DNA from: Flavobacteriaceae bacterium
Lineage (GTDB): Bacteria; Bacteroidota; Bacteroidia; Flavobacteriales; Flavobacteriaceae
Length of the DNA: 54,819 nt
Direction: 5' to 3'
Assembly (NCBI GenBank): GCA_002725015.1
Contig: PBQM01000062.1
Span: forward strand, 1 to 54,819
Positions within the stretch are counted from its first letter, which is position 1; every line of letters begins with the position of its first letter. Both the position numbers and the translations under genes were made by a program. The notes below the pieces were generated by a model. The model was not told the DNA's origin and did not search any database. It saw nothing but the letters and a program-made list of their open reading frames with translations. Below, one piece after another: positions 18,539-30,487 of the stretch.

Positions 18539-20308
18539 ATGGCGGACATTAGCAGGCTTTTTGATTTTCCTTATTACCAATTAAAAAAGCACAATCTCGA
18601 TGCGGCATTGGTAAGTAAAAAAAATGGAGAATGGGTTGAAACCTCAACCAAAGAATATCTCAATAAGGCCAATGCCTTAAGCCGCGCTTTGCTAAAGCTA
18701 GGCGTTCAAAAAGATGATAAAATCGCTGTCATTTGTACCACCAACAGAACTGAGTGGTGTATTGTAGATATTGCAGTTCTTCAATTAGGGGCGCAGACCG
18801 TTCCAATTTACCCCAATATTTCTTCTGAGGATTACCAATATGTACTGAGCCACAGCGAGGCCAGTTATTGTTTTGTTTCAGACCGAGAAGTTTTTGACAA
18901 AGTCTTAAAAGTAAAGACCAAGACAAAACTAAAAGACATTTATAGTTTTGATGAATTAGAAGATTGTGAAAATTACAGCAATCTGTTTGAAATGGGTAAA
19001 GACAAATCGAATCAAAAAGATTTGGAAACCCGCAAAGCCAATGTCAAGGAAACCGATTTGGCAACCCTGATATACACCTCTGGAACAACTGGAAAACCCA
19101 AAGGGGTCATGCTGTCACATCGGAATATCGTACAAAACGTTCTGGCCAGTATTCCAAGATTACCACTGATTGAAGGGGCTTCTCGAGTTTTGAGTTTTTT
19201 ACCACTCTGTCATATTTTTGAAAGGGTATTGATTTATGTATATCAACATGCTGGGGTCAGCGTATACTTTGCTGAAAGCCTGGAGACCATTGGCGCTGAT
19301 GCCCAAGAAATAAAACCCAACCTAATGAGTGTGGTCCCGCGTCTGCTAGAAAAAGTGTTTAATAAAATTTATGCCAAGGGCTCAGAGCTCAAGGGTCTCA
19401 AGAAAAAACTGTTTTTTTGGGCAGTTGCCCTAGGAGAGCGCTTTGAACCCTACAGGGCCAACGGTTGGTGGTATGAAGTTCAACTTAAAATTGCCAAAAA
19501 ACTTATTTTTAGCAAATGGAGATCAGGGCTTGGCGGAGAATTACACACCATGGTTTGTGGCAGCGCCGCTTTACACCCAAGACTGTCAAGAGTTTTCTGC
19601 GCTTCAGGAATGATGGTGATGGAAGGCTATGGACTGACGGAGACCTCCCCTGTTGTCAGTGTTGGTATGGAGGCCAATAAATTTTTTAAAATTGGAACCG
19701 TTGGCAAACCCATTCACAATGTAGAGGTAAAAATTGCCGAAGACGGTGAAATCCTTATCAAGGGTCCCAATGTAATGCAAGGCTATTATAAAGACCCCCA
19801 ACGTACCGCTTCGGTAATGACAGCTGATTACTTTCACACTGGTGACAAAGGGGAATTGGACCGTGAAGGATTCTTAAAAATTACTGGACGTAAAAAAGAA
19901 ATGTTTAAAACTTCTGGAGGTAAATACATCATCCCAACACTGATCGAAAATGCGCTTAAAGAATCCAATTTTATAGAACAAGTCATGGTCATTGGAGAAA
20001 ATCAAAAGATGCCTGCGGCGCTTATACAACCTAATTTTGAGTTCTTGCTAGAATGGATTGAACGCAAAAATCTAAAGATTGATAAAACACCAGAGTCAAT
20101 TGTCAGTTCAGCTGAAGTTCAAAAACGCATTCAAAAGGAAGTCGATGACTGCAACAATCGCTTTGGTAAATGGGAACAAGTTAAACGATTTGAATTGACC
20201 TCGGATGAATGGTCTATCGACAGTGGACACCTCACTCCAACAATGAAAATGAAGCGCAGTGTGATTTTAAAAATCTATGCATCTTTAGTACAAAAAATCT
20301 ACGGTTAA
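18539..20308 (+). CDS. Long-chain fatty acid--CoA ligase (AMP-forming)
   Basis: LIYTSGTTGKPKGVMLSHRN, GYGLTETSPVVS, FHTGDKGELDREGFLKITGRKKEMFKTSGGKYI. Confidence 0.94.
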   Translation: MADISRLFDFPYYQLKKHNLDAALVSKKNGEWVETSTKEYLNKANALSRALLKLGVQKDDKIAVICTTNRTEWCIVDIAVLQLGAQTVPIYPNISSEDYQYVLSHSEASYCFVSDREVFDKVLKVKTKTKLKDIYSFDELEDCENYSNLFEMGKDKSNQKDLETRKANVKETDLATLIYTSGTTGKPKGVMLSHRNIVQNVLASIPRLPLIEGASRVLSFLPLCHIFERVLIYVYQHAGVSVYFAESLETIGADAQEIKPNLMSVVPRLLEKVFNKIYAKGSELKGLKKKLFFWAVALGERFEPYRANGWWYEVQLKIAKKLIFSKWRSGLGGELHTMVCGSAALHPRLSRVFCASGMMVMEGYGLTETSPVVSVGMEANKFFKIGTVGKPIHNVEVKIAEDGEILIKGPNVMQGYYKDPQRTASVMTADYFHTGDKGELDREGFLKITGRKKEMFKTSGGKYIIPTLIENALKESNFIEQVMVIGENQKMPAALIQPNFEFLLEWIERKNLKIDKTPESIVSSAEVQKRIQKEVDDCNNRFGKWEQVKRFELTSDEWSIDSGHLTPTMKMKRSVILKIYASLVQKIYG

Positions 20309-20360: not shown

Positions 20361-20405
20361 ACTATGCATGCATAATTTTTTAATTATTTACTATGCGTGC
20401 ATAAT
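20361..20405. promoter_or_regulatory. Tandem MarR-type operators: ACTATGCATGCATAAT (20361-20376) and ACTATGCGTGCATAAT (20390-20405)
   Basis: Two 16-bp direct repeats (one mismatch) centred on the palindrome TATGCATGCATA, 29 bp apart, immediately upstream of the -7 element of the marR gene. Confidence 0.75.
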
Positions 20406-20414
20406 AAAAATTTA

Positions 20415-20422
20415 TATATTTG
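20415..20422 (+). promoter_or_regulatory. -7 element TATATTTG of the marR-fad operon
   Basis: Exact TAnnTTTG, 15 nt before ATG 20438; rules out the track start at 20420. Confidence 0.65.
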
Positions 20423-20437
20423 ATTAACCAATTAAAT

Positions 20438-20869
20438 ATGAAAGAGAAAACAATAGATTACGTATTGAGAACAACCTGGCTTGCTGTACAAAAAATGTAC
20501 AATGAAGAAGCCGCTAAATTTGAGGCGACCATGGCCACAGCCTTTACACTCTTAAGCATCGATCCCAAAAAAGGAACGCCTTCCACTTCGCTGGGACCTA
20601 AGATGGGAATGGAATCTACCAGTCTGTCAAGAATCTTAAAGACTTTGGAAAGCCGCGAATTGATAAAGCGAAGTCCAAATCCAGAAGATGGCCGCGGGGT
20701 GCTTATAAATTTAACGGCCTTAGGGCTGGAAAAAAGGGAGGATTCAAGACAGCGCGTTTTTAAATTTAACAATACCATTAGAACGGAAATTGATTCAGAA
20801 AAATTAGACCATTTTTACGATGTCACTCAATCTATTATGAATCTCATCAATGACAAAAAAATATTTTAA
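20438..20869 (+). CDS. MarR family transcriptional regulator
   Basis: MKEKTIDYVLRTTWLAVQKMYNEEAAKFEATMATAFTLLSID...TSLSRILKTLESRELIKRSPNPEDGRGVLINLTALG (wHTH and wing). Confidence 0.92.
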   Translation: MKEKTIDYVLRTTWLAVQKMYNEEAAKFEATMATAFTLLSIDPKKGTPSTSLGPKMGMESTSLSRILKTLESRELIKRSPNPEDGRGVLINLTALGLEKREDSRQRVFKFNNTIRTEIDSEKLDHFYDVTQSIMNLINDKKIF

Positions 20870-20874
20870 AGTTC

Positions 20875-23277
20875 TTGAACTCTATGAAAAAAAGAAGAAT
20901 TAATAAAATTGCCATTATTGGCTCAGGAATCATGGGAAGTGGGATTGCCTGCCACTTTGCCAACATTGGTGTGGAAGTGCTCTTACTGGACATCGTTCCC
21001 AAATCGCTGAACGAAAAAGAAAAAACACTGGGGCTTAGTCTTGAAGACAAAGCCGTAAGAAATCGACTGGTAAACGATGCTTTAAAAACTGCGCTCAAAT
21101 CTAAACCCAACCCCATTTACAGCCACAAATTTATCCAACGCATCAAATGTGGTAATTTAGAGGATGATATTTCAAAAATCAAAGATGTAGACTGGATCAT
21201 GGAGGTGGTCGTTGAGCGCTTGGATATAAAAAAACAAGTCTTTAACACCCTTGAAAAACACCGCAGCCCAGGGACCCTTATTACTTCTAATACCTCGGGC
21301 ATTCCCATTAAATTTATGAGTGAAGGTCGCAGTGAAGATTTTCAAAAACACTTTTGCGGAACCCACTTTTTTAATCCCGCCCGTTATTTAAAATTATTTG
21401 AGATTATTCCCGGACCAAAAACCGATAAAGGAGTGTTGGATTTTTTAAACGGCTATGGCGAACAATTTTTGGGGAAAACCTCAGTGGTCGCTAAGGATAC
21501 ACCAGCCTTTATAGGGAATCGGATTGGGATTTTTGGAATTCAAAGTTTGTTTCATCAAGTTAAAGAATTGGGTCTTAGCGTTGAAGAAGTAGATAAACTC
21601 ACAGGCCCTGTGATTGGAAGGCCCAAATCAGCCACTTTTAGAACGGTTGACGTTGTGGGTTTAGACACCCTTGTTCACGTGGCCGACGGGATTTTTGAAA
21701 ATTGCCCAGATGACGAAGCACAGCAGTTATTTATACTGCCTGATTTTGTCAAAAAAATGATGGAAAACAAATGGTTGGGCAGTAAGTCTGGACAGGGTTT
21801 TTACAAAAAAGAAGGAAAAAACATTCGAGTGTTAGACCTATCCACACTTGAGTATAGAGACAAAAAACGGGCTAAGTTTGAAACACTTGAATTGACAAAA
21901 TCAATCGACAATGTTATCGATCGCTTTAAAGTTTTAATTGATGGCAAAGATAAAGCCGCTGAATTTTACCGCAAAAATTTTGCGGCGATGTTTGCCTATG
22001 TATCCCACAGAATTCCAGAAATTTCTGATGAATTATATAAAATTGATGATGCCATGAAAGCGGGCTTTGGCTGGGAACACGGCCCTTTTCAAATATGGGA
22101 TGCCATAGGGATCGAGCGTGGTTTGGCGCTTTTAAAAACCGAAGGTCTTGAGCCTGCTCAATGGGTTTTGGATATGTTGACATCTGGAAATGATAGTTTT
22201 TACAGCGTTCAAAATGGAGCCAGTCATGCCTATGATATACAGTCTAAAAAACAATTGCGCATCCCGGGACAAGAATCCTTTATTATTTTGGACAACATTC
22301 GAAAATCCAATGAAGTTTTTAAAAACCAAGGAGTTGTTATTGAAGATCTTGGAGATGGTATTTTAAATTGTGAGTTCCGCTCTAAAATGAATACCATTGG
22401 AGGGGATGTACTTTCAGGACTCAACAAAGCCGTGGATTTGGCAGAACGAAATTTTGAGGGCTTGGTGATTGGTAATCAGGGCGCTAATTTTTCTGTAGGT
22501 GCCAATATTGGAATGATTTTTATGATGGCTGTTGAACAAGAATACGACGAGCTTAACACGGCTATAAAATATTTTCAGGACACCATGATGCGGATGCGAT
22601 ACTCCTCTATTCCAACCGTAGCAGCCCCACATGGCATGACCCTTGGTGGTGGATGTGAATTGTCACTGCATGTAGACAAAGTTGTAGCTGCGGCTGAAAC
22701 CTATATTGGACTTGTTGAATTTGGCGTAGGATTGATCCCCGGCGGTGGAGGTTCTAAAGAAATGGCAATGCGCGCATCAGACTCGTTTAGAAAAAATGAC
22801 GTAGAACTCAACATCCTTCAAGAATATTTCTTGACCATTGGAATGGCGAAGGTCGCTACCTCTGCCTATGAAGCTTTTGATTTGGGGATTCTTAAACATG
22901 GAAGAGATTCCGTTATTGTCAATAGAGACCGACAGATTGCAACCGCCAAAGCCCACGCAAAATTAATGGCTAAACAAGGCTATACCAAACCCGTAAAACG
23001 CAAGGATGTGAAAGTCTTGGGAAAACAAGCTCTAGGAATGTTTCTCGTTGGTACCGACGCTATGCAGGCCAGCAATTACATCAGTGAACACGATCAAAAA
23101 ATAGCCAATAAATTGGCTTATGTGATGGCTGGTGGAGATTTGTCTGAACCCAGTTTGGTGAACGAACAATACCTTTTAGACATTGAGCGAGAAGCCTTTT
23201 TGAGTTTGTGTACAGAGCGCAAAACATTAGAGCGCATTCAACATATGTTAAAAACCGGAAAACCGCTTAGAAATTAA
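20875..23277 (+). CDS. fadN: 3-hydroxyacyl-CoA dehydrogenase / enoyl-CoA hydratase (FadN-type domain order)
   Basis: N-terminal IAIIGSGIMGSGIACHFANIGVEVLLLD (3HCDH) and C-terminal enoyl-CoA hydratase region (GVGLIPGGGGSKEMAMRA). 800 aa; the track start may be a few codons upstream of ATG 20884. Confidence 0.9.
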   Translation: MNSMKKRRINKIAIIGSGIMGSGIACHFANIGVEVLLLDIVPKSLNEKEKTLGLSLEDKAVRNRLVNDALKTALKSKPNPIYSHKFIQRIKCGNLEDDISKIKDVDWIMEVVVERLDIKKQVFNTLEKHRSPGTLITSNTSGIPIKFMSEGRSEDFQKHFCGTHFFNPARYLKLFEIIPGPKTDKGVLDFLNGYGEQFLGKTSVVAKDTPAFIGNRIGIFGIQSLFHQVKELGLSVEEVDKLTGPVIGRPKSATFRTVDVVGLDTLVHVADGIFENCPDDEAQQLFILPDFVKKMMENKWLGSKSGQGFYKKEGKNIRVLDLSTLEYRDKKRAKFETLELTKSIDNVIDRFKVLIDGKDKAAEFYRKNFAAMFAYVSHRIPEISDELYKIDDAMKAGFGWEHGPFQIWDAIGIERGLALLKTEGLEPAQWVLDMLTSGNDSFYSVQNGASHAYDIQSKKQLRIPGQESFIILDNIRKSNEVFKNQGVVIEDLGDGILNCEFRSKMNTIGGDVLSGLNKAVDLAERNFEGLVIGNQGANFSVGANIGMIFMMAVEQEYDELNTAIKYFQDTMMRMRYSSIPTVAAPHGMTLGGGCELSLHVDKVVAAAETYIGLVEFGVGLIPGGGGSKEMAMRASDSFRKNDVELNILQEYFLTIGMAKVATSAYEAFDLGILKHGRDSVIVNRDRQIATAKAHAKLMAKQGYTKPVKRKDVKVLGKQALGMFLVGTDAMQASNYISEHDQKIANKLAYVMAGGDLSEPSLVNEQYLLDIEREAFLSLCTERKTLERIQHMLKTGKPLRN

Positions 23278-23280
23278 AAA

Positions 23281-24471
23281 ATGGAACAAGCCTATATAGT
23301 CAAAGCCTACAGAACCGCTGTTGGCAAAGCACCCAAAGGAATCTTTCGATTCAAAAGAGCCGATGAACTCGGAGCCGAGACCATCCAATATATGATGAAG
23401 GAACTTCCAGATTTGGAAGTATCTCGAATTGATGATGTTATTGTTGGGAATGCCATGCCAGAGGGTGCGCAAGGTCTGAATATGGCCCGATTTATATCGC
23501 TTATTGGTCTAAATTCTGTGGACGTCCCTGGAGTCACAGTCAACCGCTTTTGTTCTTCTGGACTTGAAACCATAGGAATGGCCGTTGCAAAAATTCAAGC
23601 TGGTATGGCAGATTGTGTCATAGCTGGCGGGGCCGAAAGCATGAGTGCTGTACCCATGACAGGATTTAAACCTGAACTCAATTATGATACGATAAACGCT
23701 GGGCATGAGGATTATTATTGGGGCATGGGAAACACTGCAGAAGCCGTTGCAAAAGAATATGGTGTTTCCAGAGCAGATCAAGACGAGTTTGCATTTAACT
23801 CTCATATGAAAGCGCTAAAAGCTCAAGCTGAAAATCGTTTTCAAGATCAAATTGTACCCATTCAAGTTGAACAAACCTTTGTGGACGAAAACGGAAAACG
23901 AGCCACTAAAAAATATACAGTGAACAAAGATGAGGGGCCAAGAAAAGGTACAAATTTAGAGGCACTTTCTAAATTGCGAGCTGTATTTGCGCAAGGCGGT
24001 AGTGTAACAGCTGGAAACGCCTCACAAATGAGCGATGGGGCTGCTTTTGTTTTGGTGGTAAGTGAAAGCTTGCTCAAAGAACTAAAATTAGATCCAATTG
24101 CAAGAATGGCAAGCTATGCGGTGGCGGGTGTTGAGCCAAGAATAATGGGGATTGGTCCAGTAAAAGCCATTCCAAAAGCTTTGCTAAAAGCAGGTTTAAA
24201 ACAATCCGACTTGGAACTGATTGAACTCAATGAAGCTTTTGCATCACAATCATTGGCCGTTATCAGAGAATTAGGATTAAATCCAGAACTTATTAATGTC
24301 AATGGAGGCGCCATTGCTCTGGGACATCCATTGGGCTGTACGGGTGCAAAATTATCGGTACAATTGTTTGACGAGATGCGAAAGAGAAAGATGTCATCAA
24401 AATACGGAGCCGTGACCATGTGTGTTGGTACAGGACAGGGCGCTTGTGGAATTTTCGAATTTTTAAATTAA
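23281..24471 (+). CDS. fadA: Acetyl-CoA C-acyltransferase (thiolase)
   Basis: VNRFCSSGLETIGMA, NVNGGAIALGHPLGCTGAKL, MCVGTGQGACGIFE. Confidence 0.95.
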   Translation: MEQAYIVKAYRTAVGKAPKGIFRFKRADELGAETIQYMMKELPDLEVSRIDDVIVGNAMPEGAQGLNMARFISLIGLNSVDVPGVTVNRFCSSGLETIGMAVAKIQAGMADCVIAGGAESMSAVPMTGFKPELNYDTINAGHEDYYWGMGNTAEAVAKEYGVSRADQDEFAFNSHMKALKAQAENRFQDQIVPIQVEQTFVDENGKRATKKYTVNKDEGPRKGTNLEALSKLRAVFAQGGSVTAGNASQMSDGAAFVLVVSESLLKELKLDPIARMASYAVAGVEPRIMGIGPVKAIPKALLKAGLKQSDLELIELNEAFASQSLAVIRELGLNPELINVNGGAIALGHPLGCTGAKLSVQLFDEMRKRKMSSKYGAVTMCVGTGQGACGIFEFLN

Positions 24472-24491: not shown

Positions 24492-26288
24492 ATGGAAGTA
24501 AAAGAATTATTAAGAGGCGGACAGTTTTTAGTCAAAGAAAGTCCCTGCGACAGTATTTTTACCCCTGAAGACTTTTCAGAAGAACAGCTGATGATGAGAG
24601 ATGCTGTTAAAGAATTTAATGACAGAGAAGTTATTGCCAAACGCGATCGGTTTGAAGCCAAGGACTACGCCTTAACCGAGGCGGTCATGCGCAAGGCTGG
24701 AGAAATGGGATTTCTTGGAGTTTCAGTCCCCGAGGCCTATGGGGGTTTAGAAATGGGGTTTGTCTCTAGTATGTTGGTCTGTGAATATATTTCCAGCGGT
24801 ACTGGATCTTTTAGCACCGCATTTGGCGCCCACACCGGAATTGGAACCATGCCAATTACTCTCTATGGGACAGAGGCCCAAAAACAAAAATATGTTCCAA
24901 AGCTCGCCTCTGGACAGTGGTTTGGCGCCTATTGCCTGACAGAACCTGAGGCTGGAAGTGATGCCAATTCTGGTAAAACCACAGCCACATTATCAAAAGA
25001 TGGCAGTTACTACAGTATCAGTGGTCAAAAAATGTGGATATCAAATGCAGGCTTTTGCAATGTATTTATCGTCTTTGCGCGCATTGAGAACGACAAAAAT
25101 ATTACTGGGTTTATCGTAGAGAATGACCCTTCAAACGGCATTACATTGGGCGAGGAAGAACACAAACTAGGGATCAGAGCATCTTCAACAAGACAAGTAT
25201 TCTTTAACGATACTAAAGTCCCAATTGAAAATATGCTTTCCGATAGACAAAATGGATTTAAAATTGCAATGAATGCCCTAAACATTGGTCGTATTAAATT
25301 GGCCGCAGCCTGTATTGATTCACAACGAAGAATTACCACGGATGCAATTGTTTATGCCAATGCACGAAAACAGTTTAAAACGCCCATCGCAGAATTTGGA
25401 GCCATTAAACACAAATTGGCAGAGATGGCCACCAATACCTATGTAAGTGAATCGGCTTGTTATAGAGCTGCCAAAGAGATTGAGGACCGCATTGCAATGC
25501 GTATTGAGAATGGAAATTCTCATCAGCAGGCCGAGCTGAAGGGCGTTGAAGAGTATGCGATAGAATGCTCCATATTAAAAGTAGCCGTTTCAGAAAATGT
25601 ACAAAATTGTGCCGATGAAGGTATTCAAGTCTTTGGTGGCATGGGGTTTTCTGAAGAAACCCCTATGGAGGCTGCTTGGAGAGACGCTAGAATTGCTAGA
25701 ATTTACGAAGGAACCAATGAAATAAATCGAATGATTTGCATCGGGATGTTGATTAAAAAGGCCATGAAAGGCCATGTTGATTTATTGGGACCTGCAGTGA
25801 AAGTAAAGGAGGAGTTAATGGGCATACCATCATTTGAAACCCCTAATTATACAGCTCCACTGTCACAAGAAAAAGCGGTATTAAAAAATCTTAAAAAAGT
25901 TTTTTTAATGGTCGCTGGAGCCGGGATTGAAAAATATGGTCCGCAAATTGAGGAACAACAGCAGTTGCTTTTAAATGCAGCTGATATTTTGATACAAATT
26001 TATATGGCTGAATCTGCGATTTTAAGAACAGAAAAAAATATTTTTCGCTTTGGCGAAGCCGCTCAAAAACATCAAACAGAAATGAGTCAATTGTACCTTT
26101 ACAACGCAGTAGACATCATTACAAAAAGTGCAAAAAATGGAATCGTATCGTTTGTAGAGGGGGACGAACAGCGGATGATGTTGATGGGCTTAAAGCGTTT
26201 TACAAAGTACAGCCATTACCCCAATGTAGCAGCGCTCAGGGGCAACATCGCTGACAAAGTAAATAAAGAGAATGCGTATTGTTTCTAA
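24492..26288 (+). CDS. fadE: Acyl-CoA dehydrogenase (FadE-type, 598 aa)
   Basis: YCLTEPEAGSDANSGKTTA, KMWISNAGFCNVFIVFARI, QVFGGMGFSEETPMEAAWRDARIARIYEGTNEINR. Confidence 0.94.
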   Translation: MEVKELLRGGQFLVKESPCDSIFTPEDFSEEQLMMRDAVKEFNDREVIAKRDRFEAKDYALTEAVMRKAGEMGFLGVSVPEAYGGLEMGFVSSMLVCEYISSGTGSFSTAFGAHTGIGTMPITLYGTEAQKQKYVPKLASGQWFGAYCLTEPEAGSDANSGKTTATLSKDGSYYSISGQKMWISNAGFCNVFIVFARIENDKNITGFIVENDPSNGITLGEEEHKLGIRASSTRQVFFNDTKVPIENMLSDRQNGFKIAMNALNIGRIKLAAACIDSQRRITTDAIVYANARKQFKTPIAEFGAIKHKLAEMATNTYVSESACYRAAKEIEDRIAMRIENGNSHQQAELKGVEEYAIECSILKVAVSENVQNCADEGIQVFGGMGFSEETPMEAAWRDARIARIYEGTNEINRMICIGMLIKKAMKGHVDLLGPAVKVKEELMGIPSFETPNYTAPLSQEKAVLKNLKKVFLMVAGAGIEKYGPQIEEQQQLLLNAADILIQIYMAESAILRTEKNIFRFGEAAQKHQTEMSQLYLYNAVDIITKSAKNGIVSFVEGDEQRMMLMGLKRFTKYSHYPNVAALRGNIADKVNKENAYCF

Positions 26289-28030: not shown

Positions 28031-28115
28031 ATTCCAGTTCAGTTTCTAGAAAAGACATAGCCCTACATATATTTTTTAAGTTTATAAAAAATGCTAACAT
28101 TTTAAATTGCTACTA

Positions 28116-29276
28116 ATGAATCCATCTGCAAGAGGCTGGCTAAAGAAATTAATGAAATTTGCAACTAAAAATTCTGCAAAGCGCTCTACGCTCTCAAACC
28201 TTTATCCAAGTCTAAAGTCCGCTGGTTTTATTTATGGAGCGAATGTATCTATTGCCATTGATGCGCTCAACAATACTGACTTTACACAGGAGGAACGCTG
28301 TAAAATTAATTTTACACTAGCACTTTTGTCAGTTTATGAGGACGCTGATAAAAAGGAATCGGATTTTGAGACCGCTCTAAAGTTGTTTTATAAAAATATA
28401 GAATTTCACAAATCAAGCTTTGTAAATGATTTACTAGGCACGGACATCGAAGCCATACTTCACAAACGCATCCAAACAGATACCAATATTTTATCTAAAA
28501 CTTTTAGTTTATTCGTTACAAATGCATTGTTGTTTATAGATGTTTTGGCATTTGAAGTGTTTTTAAGAGAGCCAAAATATGCTAAAACTTATTTGATCCA
28601 TCTAGAAAATTCGATCCATACCTTGGTTTCCAAGGCCTTAAATTCAAAGACAATAAAAAATAATTATGACGAAGGTTTAATTAAATTATTGGAGTCATCA
28701 CTTCGAACAACCGCCGCAAATAAAACCAGCCATGAGCCGTTAAATTCAGAAAAATTCTCACCCTTGGAACGGATTTATTTACTAGACTTAGCCTGTATGG
28801 CAACTTGGAGTGATTTAAAAATTGACAAAGGTGAAAAAGCATTTTTTAAAGATTTTGAAATTGATTTTAAAGTTTCAAACACAGCAATTAAAAGTGCGAA
28901 TGATGATGTAAATAATTTTTATAAAAAATATAAGAATGAGATTTCGCTGCTCAGTACCCAAAACATTGCAGAACGTTTTTATCAGCGCGCTTCTAGTATT
29001 GTAAAAAAGTTAATTTCTAGAAATAGCAAACGATTATACCAGGAACTGAAAGAAAGTAAGGATTTGGTGAAATTAGTCTCCGAGTCCACTGTTAGAGATC
29101 TCAATAAAGAAGAACAACAACAGATGCAAGAGCAAATGATGGACCTTATTAAATCCATTCCGAGTCTTGCTATTTTTATGCTTCCTGGGGGGGCTATTTT
29201 ACTGCCAATTTTTATAAAATTCATTCCCAAACTCCTGCCCTCAGCTTTTGATGAAAACAGAATAGAAAATGATTGA
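28116..29276 (+). CDS. LETM1-like domain protein (LETM1-related biofilm-associated protein family)
   Basis: C-terminus MDLIKSIPSLAIFMLPGGAILLPIFIKFIPKLLPSAF matches the LETM1 membrane-proximal motif. ATG 28116 preferred over upstream TTG 28107. Confidence 0.75.
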   Translation: MNPSARGWLKKLMKFATKNSAKRSTLSNLYPSLKSAGFIYGANVSIAIDALNNTDFTQEERCKINFTLALLSVYEDADKKESDFETALKLFYKNIEFHKSSFVNDLLGTDIEAILHKRIQTDTNILSKTFSLFVTNALLFIDVLAFEVFLREPKYAKTYLIHLENSIHTLVSKALNSKTIKNNYDEGLIKLLESSLRTTAANKTSHEPLNSEKFSPLERIYLLDLACMATWSDLKIDKGEKAFFKDFEIDFKVSNTAIKSANDDVNNFYKKYKNEISLLSTQNIAERFYQRASSIVKKLISRNSKRLYQELKESKDLVKLVSESTVRDLNKEEQQQMQEQMMDLIKSIPSLAIFMLPGGAILLPIFIKFIPKLLPSAFDENRIEND

Positions 29277-29339: not shown

Positions 29340-29837
29340 TTGAAATCAACAAACGAAAAGGAATTTGTAACACTTATTGAAGAACATCAGAATTTGATTC
29401 ACAAAATCTGTCGTTTGTACACCAAAAGTAATACAGAGCACAAAGATTTATTTCAAGAAATTACAATACAGCTTTGGAAAGCCTATCCGAAGTTTAGAGG
29501 CGATTCAAAATTCAGTACCTGGATGTATCGCGTGGGCATCAATACGGCCATTACACTTTACAGAAAATCCAAACGAAGGATTCAAAGTTTAAGTTTTGAA
29601 GACGTGGCTTATAAAGTCCCTCAGAGCGAATCCTATGACGATACGGAAGACCAGCAAATCAAAGCTATATATCAAGCCATTAAACAATTGAACGATATTG
29701 AAAAAGCCGTAGTTTTTCTTTACCTAGAAGATAAATCCTATAAAGAAATTAGCAACACCATCGGCATCACAGAAGTCAATGCGCGTGTGCGAATGAACCG
29801 CATAAAAAAGAAATTAATAAAACAGTTAAATCCTTGA
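29340..29837 (+). CDS. RNA polymerase sigma factor, ECF subfamily (TTG start)
   Basis: Sigma-70 region 2 (HKDLFQEITIQLWKAYPKFRGDSKFSTWMYRVGINTAITLYRK) and region 4 (LYLEDKSYKEISNTIGITEVNARVRMNRIKKKL). Confidence 0.93.
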   Translation: MKSTNEKEFVTLIEEHQNLIHKICRLYTKSNTEHKDLFQEITIQLWKAYPKFRGDSKFSTWMYRVGINTAITLYRKSKRRIQSLSFEDVAYKVPQSESYDDTEDQQIKAIYQAIKQLNDIEKAVVFLYLEDKSYKEISNTIGITEVNARVRMNRIKKKLIKQLNP

Positions 29838-29839
29838 TT

Positions 29840-30487
29840 ATGGATGAATTAAAACGATTAAAAAAGGACTGGCAAGAAAATCAAAAGTTTCCAAAATTAA
29901 GCCAATTTGAAATATATAAATTTTTACATAAAAAGTCCTCATCATTGGTAAAACGGATTTTTGTGTTGAGTTTGATTGAATTTGGTTTTTGGACCTTTAT
30001 AAGCTTTTTTATCAAAGACAATGAAGCCCAACAAAGGTTTGATCAATACCAAATGGAACATTTCACCATACCTCTGATTGTTATCGGATATGCAGTTCTG
30101 TTGTATTTTTTCTTTTTATTTTATAAGAATTACAAGTCCATTTCAAGTATTGACAGCACCAAAGGTCTGATGCAGCAAATCCTAAAAACCCGACGTACTG
30201 TCAAGAATTATGTAATTTTCAATCTGGTTTTCTTATATATTTCTATTGTGATTGGATTGTTAATTGAACTCAATAACAATCCAGATGTCGTAATGCTGAC
30301 CGCAGAATTTAATTCCACTGGCGACTATTTGATTTTCTATGGAATCATCATAATTCTAACCCTTATAATGATGGCTTTACTGACGGCTTTGTTGCTTGGT
30401 TTCTATTTCCTTGTGTATGGAATTCTTCTGAAAAAATTGAAAAACAACTACAAAGAATTGCAAACTATTGAAGCGGACACTGACTAG
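29840..30487 (+). CDS. Multi-TM membrane protein, possible membrane partner of the upstream sigma factor
   Basis: DELKRLKKDWQENQKFPKLSQFEIYKFLHKKSSSLVKRIF plus four hydrophobic segments; starts 2 nt after the sigma-factor stop. Confidence 0.65.
   Translation: MDELKRLKKDWQENQKFPKLSQFEIYKFLHKKSSSLVKRIFVLSLIEFGFWTFISFFIKDNEAQQRFDQYQMEHFTIPLIVIGYAVLLYFFFLFYKNYKSISSIDSTKGLMQQILKTRRTVKNYVIFNLVFLYISIVIGLLIELNNNPDVVMLTAEFNSTGDYLIFYGIIIILTLIMMALLTALLLGFYFLVYGILLKKLKNNYKELQTIEADTD

Follow-up and report, generated by a model that had tools for sequence, protein, structure and literature searches.

A palindrome conserved at marR-fadN loci of Bacteroidota, the predicted operator of a MarR-family autorepressor of beta-oxidation and ETF genes

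The marR-fadNAE operon and its promoter

The window (the whole stretch of 54,819 nucleotides that was analysed) comes from a Flavobacteriaceae bacterium whose own assembly comprises 1.44 Mb and is 74% complete. It contains a gene for a MarR-family regulator followed on the same strand by fadN, fadA and fadE, with a fadD-like gene upstream and two near-identical 16-bp repeats and a promoter element in the intervening region. The features are as follows.

18539-20308, + strand: AMP-binding long-chain acyl-CoA ligase (fadD-like); AMP-binding 1e-74
20361-20376, no strand assigned: distal operator ACTATGCATGCATAAT; auxiliary copy, candidate MarR site
20390-20405, no strand assigned: proximal operator ACTATGCGTGCATAAT, over the -33 region; the conserved copy, candidate MarR site
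20415-20422, + strand: -7 promoter element TATATTTG; consensus TAnnTTTG, predicted start at about 20427, leader of about 11 nt
20438-20869, + strand: MarR-family regulator, 143 aa, conserved ATG; Pfam MarR 2e-11; proposed autorepressor
20875-23277, + strand: fadN/FadB-type 3-hydroxyacyl-CoA dehydrogenase/enoyl-CoA hydratase, 800 aa; Pfam 3HCDH_N 3e-42, ECH_1 1e-12
23281-24471, + strand: fadA-type acetyl-CoA C-acyltransferase (thiolase), 396 aa; Thiolase_N 3e-64, TIGR01930 above cut-off
24492-26288, + strand: fadE-type acyl-CoA dehydrogenase, 598 aa; NF058590 AcCoDHFadEBacil, 718.6 bits (cut-off 600)

The FadN-type protein also matches the NCBIfam model Staph_FadB (5e-180), under the cut-off of that model. 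Between the end of the fadD-like gene and the distal operator lie 52 bp. Further downstream, positions 28107-29276 and 29340-30487 of the window hold a group consisting of a LETM1-related biofilm-associated protein (NCBIfam NF040639), then an ECF sigma factor and a putative membrane protein, which is probably a unit unrelated to the fad operon.

The two 16-mers, with a start-to-start distance of 29 bp, stand in front of the -7 element exactly as the original prediction had written them. That each is built on a palindrome is true without reservation of the distal copy, which encloses a perfect 12-bp palindrome, TATGCATGCATA, at 20363-20374; the proximal copy, TATGCGTGCATA (20392-20403), is palindromic apart from its central dinucleotide, with one centre base differing from the distal copy. 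The -7 box, the consensus of which derives from Flavobacterium psychrophilum, was mapped in that species at -12 to -5 (PMC9723704), and the start site is therefore predicted at about 20427. Relative to this position, the proximal palindrome spans approximately -35 to -24 and the distal palindrome approximately -64 to -53.

Short repeats arise often in AT-rich DNA such as this region, which is the point in favour of reading the repeats as chance, or as a mobile or structural repeat with no regulatory role. Under a trinucleotide-Markov background, 0.03 copies of TATGCNNGCATA are expected per window, against two observed, and no close pair appeared in any of 60 simulated windows. The two copies are the only ones in the window, with none at the fadD-like neighbour itself; a scan allowing two mismatches was uninformative, since matches as loose as these are frequent. 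In whole genomes, searched for the palindrome by pattern, copies are few, and most of them accompany marR, etfB or lipid genes. The background model, together with conservation of the site between loci at 38-63% protein identity, rules out the chance or repeat-element reading.

Conservation and placement of the palindrome at marR

Orthologues were drawn from 100 related genomes and from GTDB contigs. The main set holds 124 distinct upstream regions of marR orthologues, mostly from Flavobacteriales and 121 of them linked to fadN; a distant set holds 40 marR loci, half from other orders of the class, of which 20 overlap the 124. For the distant set, fadN linkage was scored at a threshold of E 1e-20, and one locus cut by a contig end (L239) has the site but was scored as unlinked. 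Lack of conservation before orthologous marR-fad operons had been named as an observation that would count against the original prediction, and the prediction withstood this check. We found TATGCNNGCATA, exact, upstream of marR in 120 of the 121 distinct fadN-linked orthologues, the sole miss being L222. Among the distant orthologues (38-63% protein identity, other orders of the class included), 33/35 fadN-linked loci have it within one mismatch, compared with 0/40 control stretches taken from inside genes. The consensus of the conserved site is TATGC-NN-GCATA. The surrounding sequence differs widely from locus to locus while the site is kept, which argues that the palindrome is under selection.

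In 107/120 loci, 17 or 18 bp separate the palindrome centre from the first base of the -7 box, which puts the site over the -33 region; the placement proposed for the promoter-proximal copy thus holds at fixed spacing in the orthologues. Most loci with leaders of 76-158 nt keep this spacing as well, and the site is therefore tied to the promoter and not to the start codon. Repressors that keep polymerase off a promoter typically have their operator in this position.

A second, distal site lies 27-30 bp upstream of the proximal one in 34 of the 120 distinct orthologues and in 9 of 11 compared members of the genus of the window; the other 86 of the 120 have one operator. The tandem arrangement in the original prediction is thus present in the window without being part of the conserved core: a single operator is the norm and the pair is a recurrent variant. 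A search of a plasmid collection returned only distant MarR proteins, the best with 34% identity (Pontibacter).

Sites at etfB and in genomes without marR

The original prediction had also suggested a genome-wide scan near lipid genes, which led to the region that separates etfB-etfA from the divergently oriented pdhB in the own genome and in most relatives. In the own genome this site, TTCCTATGCATGCATAGGAA (C82, L115:3969-3982), is a 20-bp perfect palindrome. A third palindrome, TATGCTTGCATA (C77:26448), is inside coding sequence and was treated as chance, as are some single palindromes within coding sequence in relatives. The etfB-pdhB site counts as the sole other intergenic one, which indicates a regulon wider than the fad operon. 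ETF is the electron acceptor of acyl-CoA dehydrogenase, and the function of etfB, which played no part in finding the site, accordingly fits beta-oxidation. The pdhB gene, for pyruvate dehydrogenase E1 beta, may share control from this palindrome, although its own -7-like box lies some 50 bp away.

Fifty-four genomes with etfB were compared, 45 with and nine without marR. An exact palindrome is located 49-227 bp before etfB in 37/45 genomes with marR (own genome included) versus 0/9 without it (Fisher 4.6e-6, not corrected for relatedness). The eight marR-containing genomes without an exact site are mostly outside the family, and one of them (G079) was counted in this class with a near match present at its etfB. 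At etfB, most sites have their centre 25-29 bp upstream of the -7 box, roughly a helical turn more distant than at marR, and the palindrome lies over or adjoins the -33 region of etfB. This larger distance, and the fact that some MarR proteins activate transcription (PMC5487221), would suit an activator or dual regulator. We consider that very improbable: at marR the fixed-spacing palindrome is on the -33 region itself, so a dimer bound there should keep polymerase out, and at etfB the palindrome still reaches the -33 region.

Three genomes keep fadN and have no marR by profile search (G032, G065 and G078); there is nothing marR-like ahead of fadN in the first, and fadN directly follows fadD in the other two. 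The palindrome is absent from the entire genome of all three, from which it follows that the operator goes with marR and not with the fad genes. Second marR paralogues with no fadN linkage (L211, L213 and L216 in G094, G085 and G074) have the palindrome in 0/3 cases; these paralogues are 35-40% identical, lie outside fad operons and come from three genomes of one family. A regulator of lipid metabolism encoded elsewhere might bind the palindrome, with marR as a mere passenger of the operon, and such an arrangement would accommodate one nearly complete genome (G070; L247-L250) in which neither marR nor fadN is clearly present but four palindromes occur, among them one at a gene of alpha/beta hydrolase-like (lipase-like) type and another at a nitronate-monooxygenase-like gene. 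The three genomes that lost the palindrome with marR, the nine that lack both marR and the etfB site, and the paralogues outside fad operons make an unlinked regulator very unlikely. We regard G070 as an exception, which may represent a relic regulon or a replaced regulator. A second genome that appeared to have palindromes but no marR (G025) was set aside, as its contig ends inside fadN, which explains the absence.

Palindromes in relatives also mark other genes. A TonB-dependent receptor has one approximately 72-78 bp upstream in six genomes (L140, L145, L150, L157, L163 and L169) and is a candidate lipid-related outer-membrane importer. Further sites precede nitronate-monooxygenase-like genes (eight sites), ketoacyl-ACP synthase III-like genes (four) and genes for a zinc-type oxidoreductase and a 4Fe-4S (Fe-S) electron-transfer protein. 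At two loci (L162 and L166, from G027 and G029), two palindromes about 95 bp apart are found between a nitronate-monooxygenase-like gene and a recurrent small protein of 166-167 aa that begins like a signal peptide and matches no Pfam family.

The regulator, its relatives and its proposed action

The AlphaFold model of the regulator has a pLDDT of 93.7, and Foldseek matched it with a probability of 1.00 to chains of MepR, MarR, SlyA and CouR, including DNA complexes of the first three and the CouR-coumaroyl-CoA complex. The protein has the features of its family: a winged-helix MarR domain, helical dimerization ends, a length of about 140 aa and, as a sequence pattern characteristic of autoregulation, a palindromic operator of about 16-20 bp at its own promoter in the 120 orthologues described above. 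Recognition-helix residues Ser62, Leu63 and Arg65 are invariant in 40 orthologues, a conservation that matches the hardly changed operator. Sequence and fold searches placed the protein in the general MarR family and singled out no acyl-CoA-binding or other ligand-specific nearest relative; a fatty acid biosynthesis transcriptional regulator (PDB 6jbx) is a weak profile match (2e-7). By these features the system would be an ordinary MarR-family autorepressor, with a predicted beta-oxidation/ETF regulon controlled through promoter occlusion.

In its proposed function it resembles FadR. Proteins of that name, which are GntR members in gammaproteobacteria and TetR members in Bacillus, Thermus and Sulfolobus, are acyl-CoA-relieved repressors of fad and etf genes, and here too predicted operators stand at genes of beta-oxidation and ETF: both marR-fadNAE and etfB carry them, in the own genome as in relatives. 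However, both the protein families and the operators are unrelated, and a regulator with a MarR fold is not a FadR. Closer in fold are CouR, HcaR and FerC, MarR repressors of hydroxycinnamate catabolism, which likewise adjoin the catabolic operon that they control. The CouR inverted repeat overlaps the -35 element of regulated promoters (PMC4737184), comparable to the site on the -33 region here, and CouR and FerC are released by a CoA thioester (PMC4737184, PMC5487221). These proteins act on aromatic acid substrates, though, and are similar in sequence only at the level of the whole family; the CouR box, cATTGA-N5-TCAATg, differs from TATGC-NN-GCATA, which places the present regulator outside the CouR subfamily. 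FabT of streptococci and enterococci shares MarR-family control of a lipid pathway, but it governs fatty-acid synthesis, binding DNA better with acyl-ACP (PMC5487221), whereas the genes linked here are for degradation, and the regulator is therefore not assigned to FabT.

Operator conservation, promoter geometry, pairing with marR and the etfB sites are all established by comparison of sequences. We put the probability that MarR acts at these predicted sites on the fad and etf genes at roughly 0.85, and the palindrome is very probably the binding site of a regulator that turns fat breakdown on and off. As to the mode of action, we infer that MarR physically binds the sites, that it represses, that binding is cooperative, and which molecule acts as the inducer. 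Without fatty acid, a MarR dimer would occupy the proximal operator and cover the -33 region, so that RNA polymerase is blocked and the regulator represses its own operon. Where a distal copy is present, a second dimer would bind there, probably strengthening repression. The same MarR would repress etfBA from the palindrome between etfB and pdhB, in which case the dehydrogenases and their electron acceptor would come under joint control. Release of MarR, and with it induction of beta-oxidation, would be triggered by a metabolite derived from lipid; a long-chain acyl-CoA produced by the adjoining acyl-CoA ligase is the most likely one.

We favour long-chain acyl-CoA as the inducer with some reserve and by analogy, since in CouR and FerC it is the CoA thioester of the substrate that brings about release. 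The same repressor and operators could instead respond to a short or branched acyl-CoA, to a free fatty acid or to acyl-ACP as a corepressor. Free palmitate is present in the crystal of a Paenisporosarcina MarR (PMC8420766), acyl-ACP is the corepressor of FabT (PMC5487221) and the searches singled out no acyl-CoA-binding relative; against this, the regulon is catabolic, catabolic MarR repressors of CoA-activated substrates respond to the thioester, and an acyl-CoA ligase gene adjoins the operon. We judge such an effector a substantial possibility, though at less than even odds.

Regulators of fatty-acid degradation are well known in Proteobacteria and Firmicutes. The literature searched contains none for Bacteroidota, and no description of a MarR regulator of fatty-acid degradation or of this operator in the phylum, with subscription journals mostly uncovered, so that this absence is not proof. 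Bacteroidota are major degraders in marine and soil environments. We consider it somewhat more likely than not that MarR and TATGCNNGCATA are the ancestral master switch of fatty-acid degradation across those members of the class that have beta-oxidation, in the place of FadR/PsrA and with a regulon that includes ETF, lipases and lipid-associated receptors of the outer membrane. The regulator, its operator and its targets are conserved over a large part of the class, and because they are proposed together with an exact, mutable sequence, the control of fat breakdown can be put to a direct test, Flavobacterium johnsoniae being one suitable species. In F. psychrophilum, beta-oxidation genes are induced by fish (host) mucus and plasma (PMC9723704), and the MarR switch could explain this induction if the species has the same marR-operator pair.
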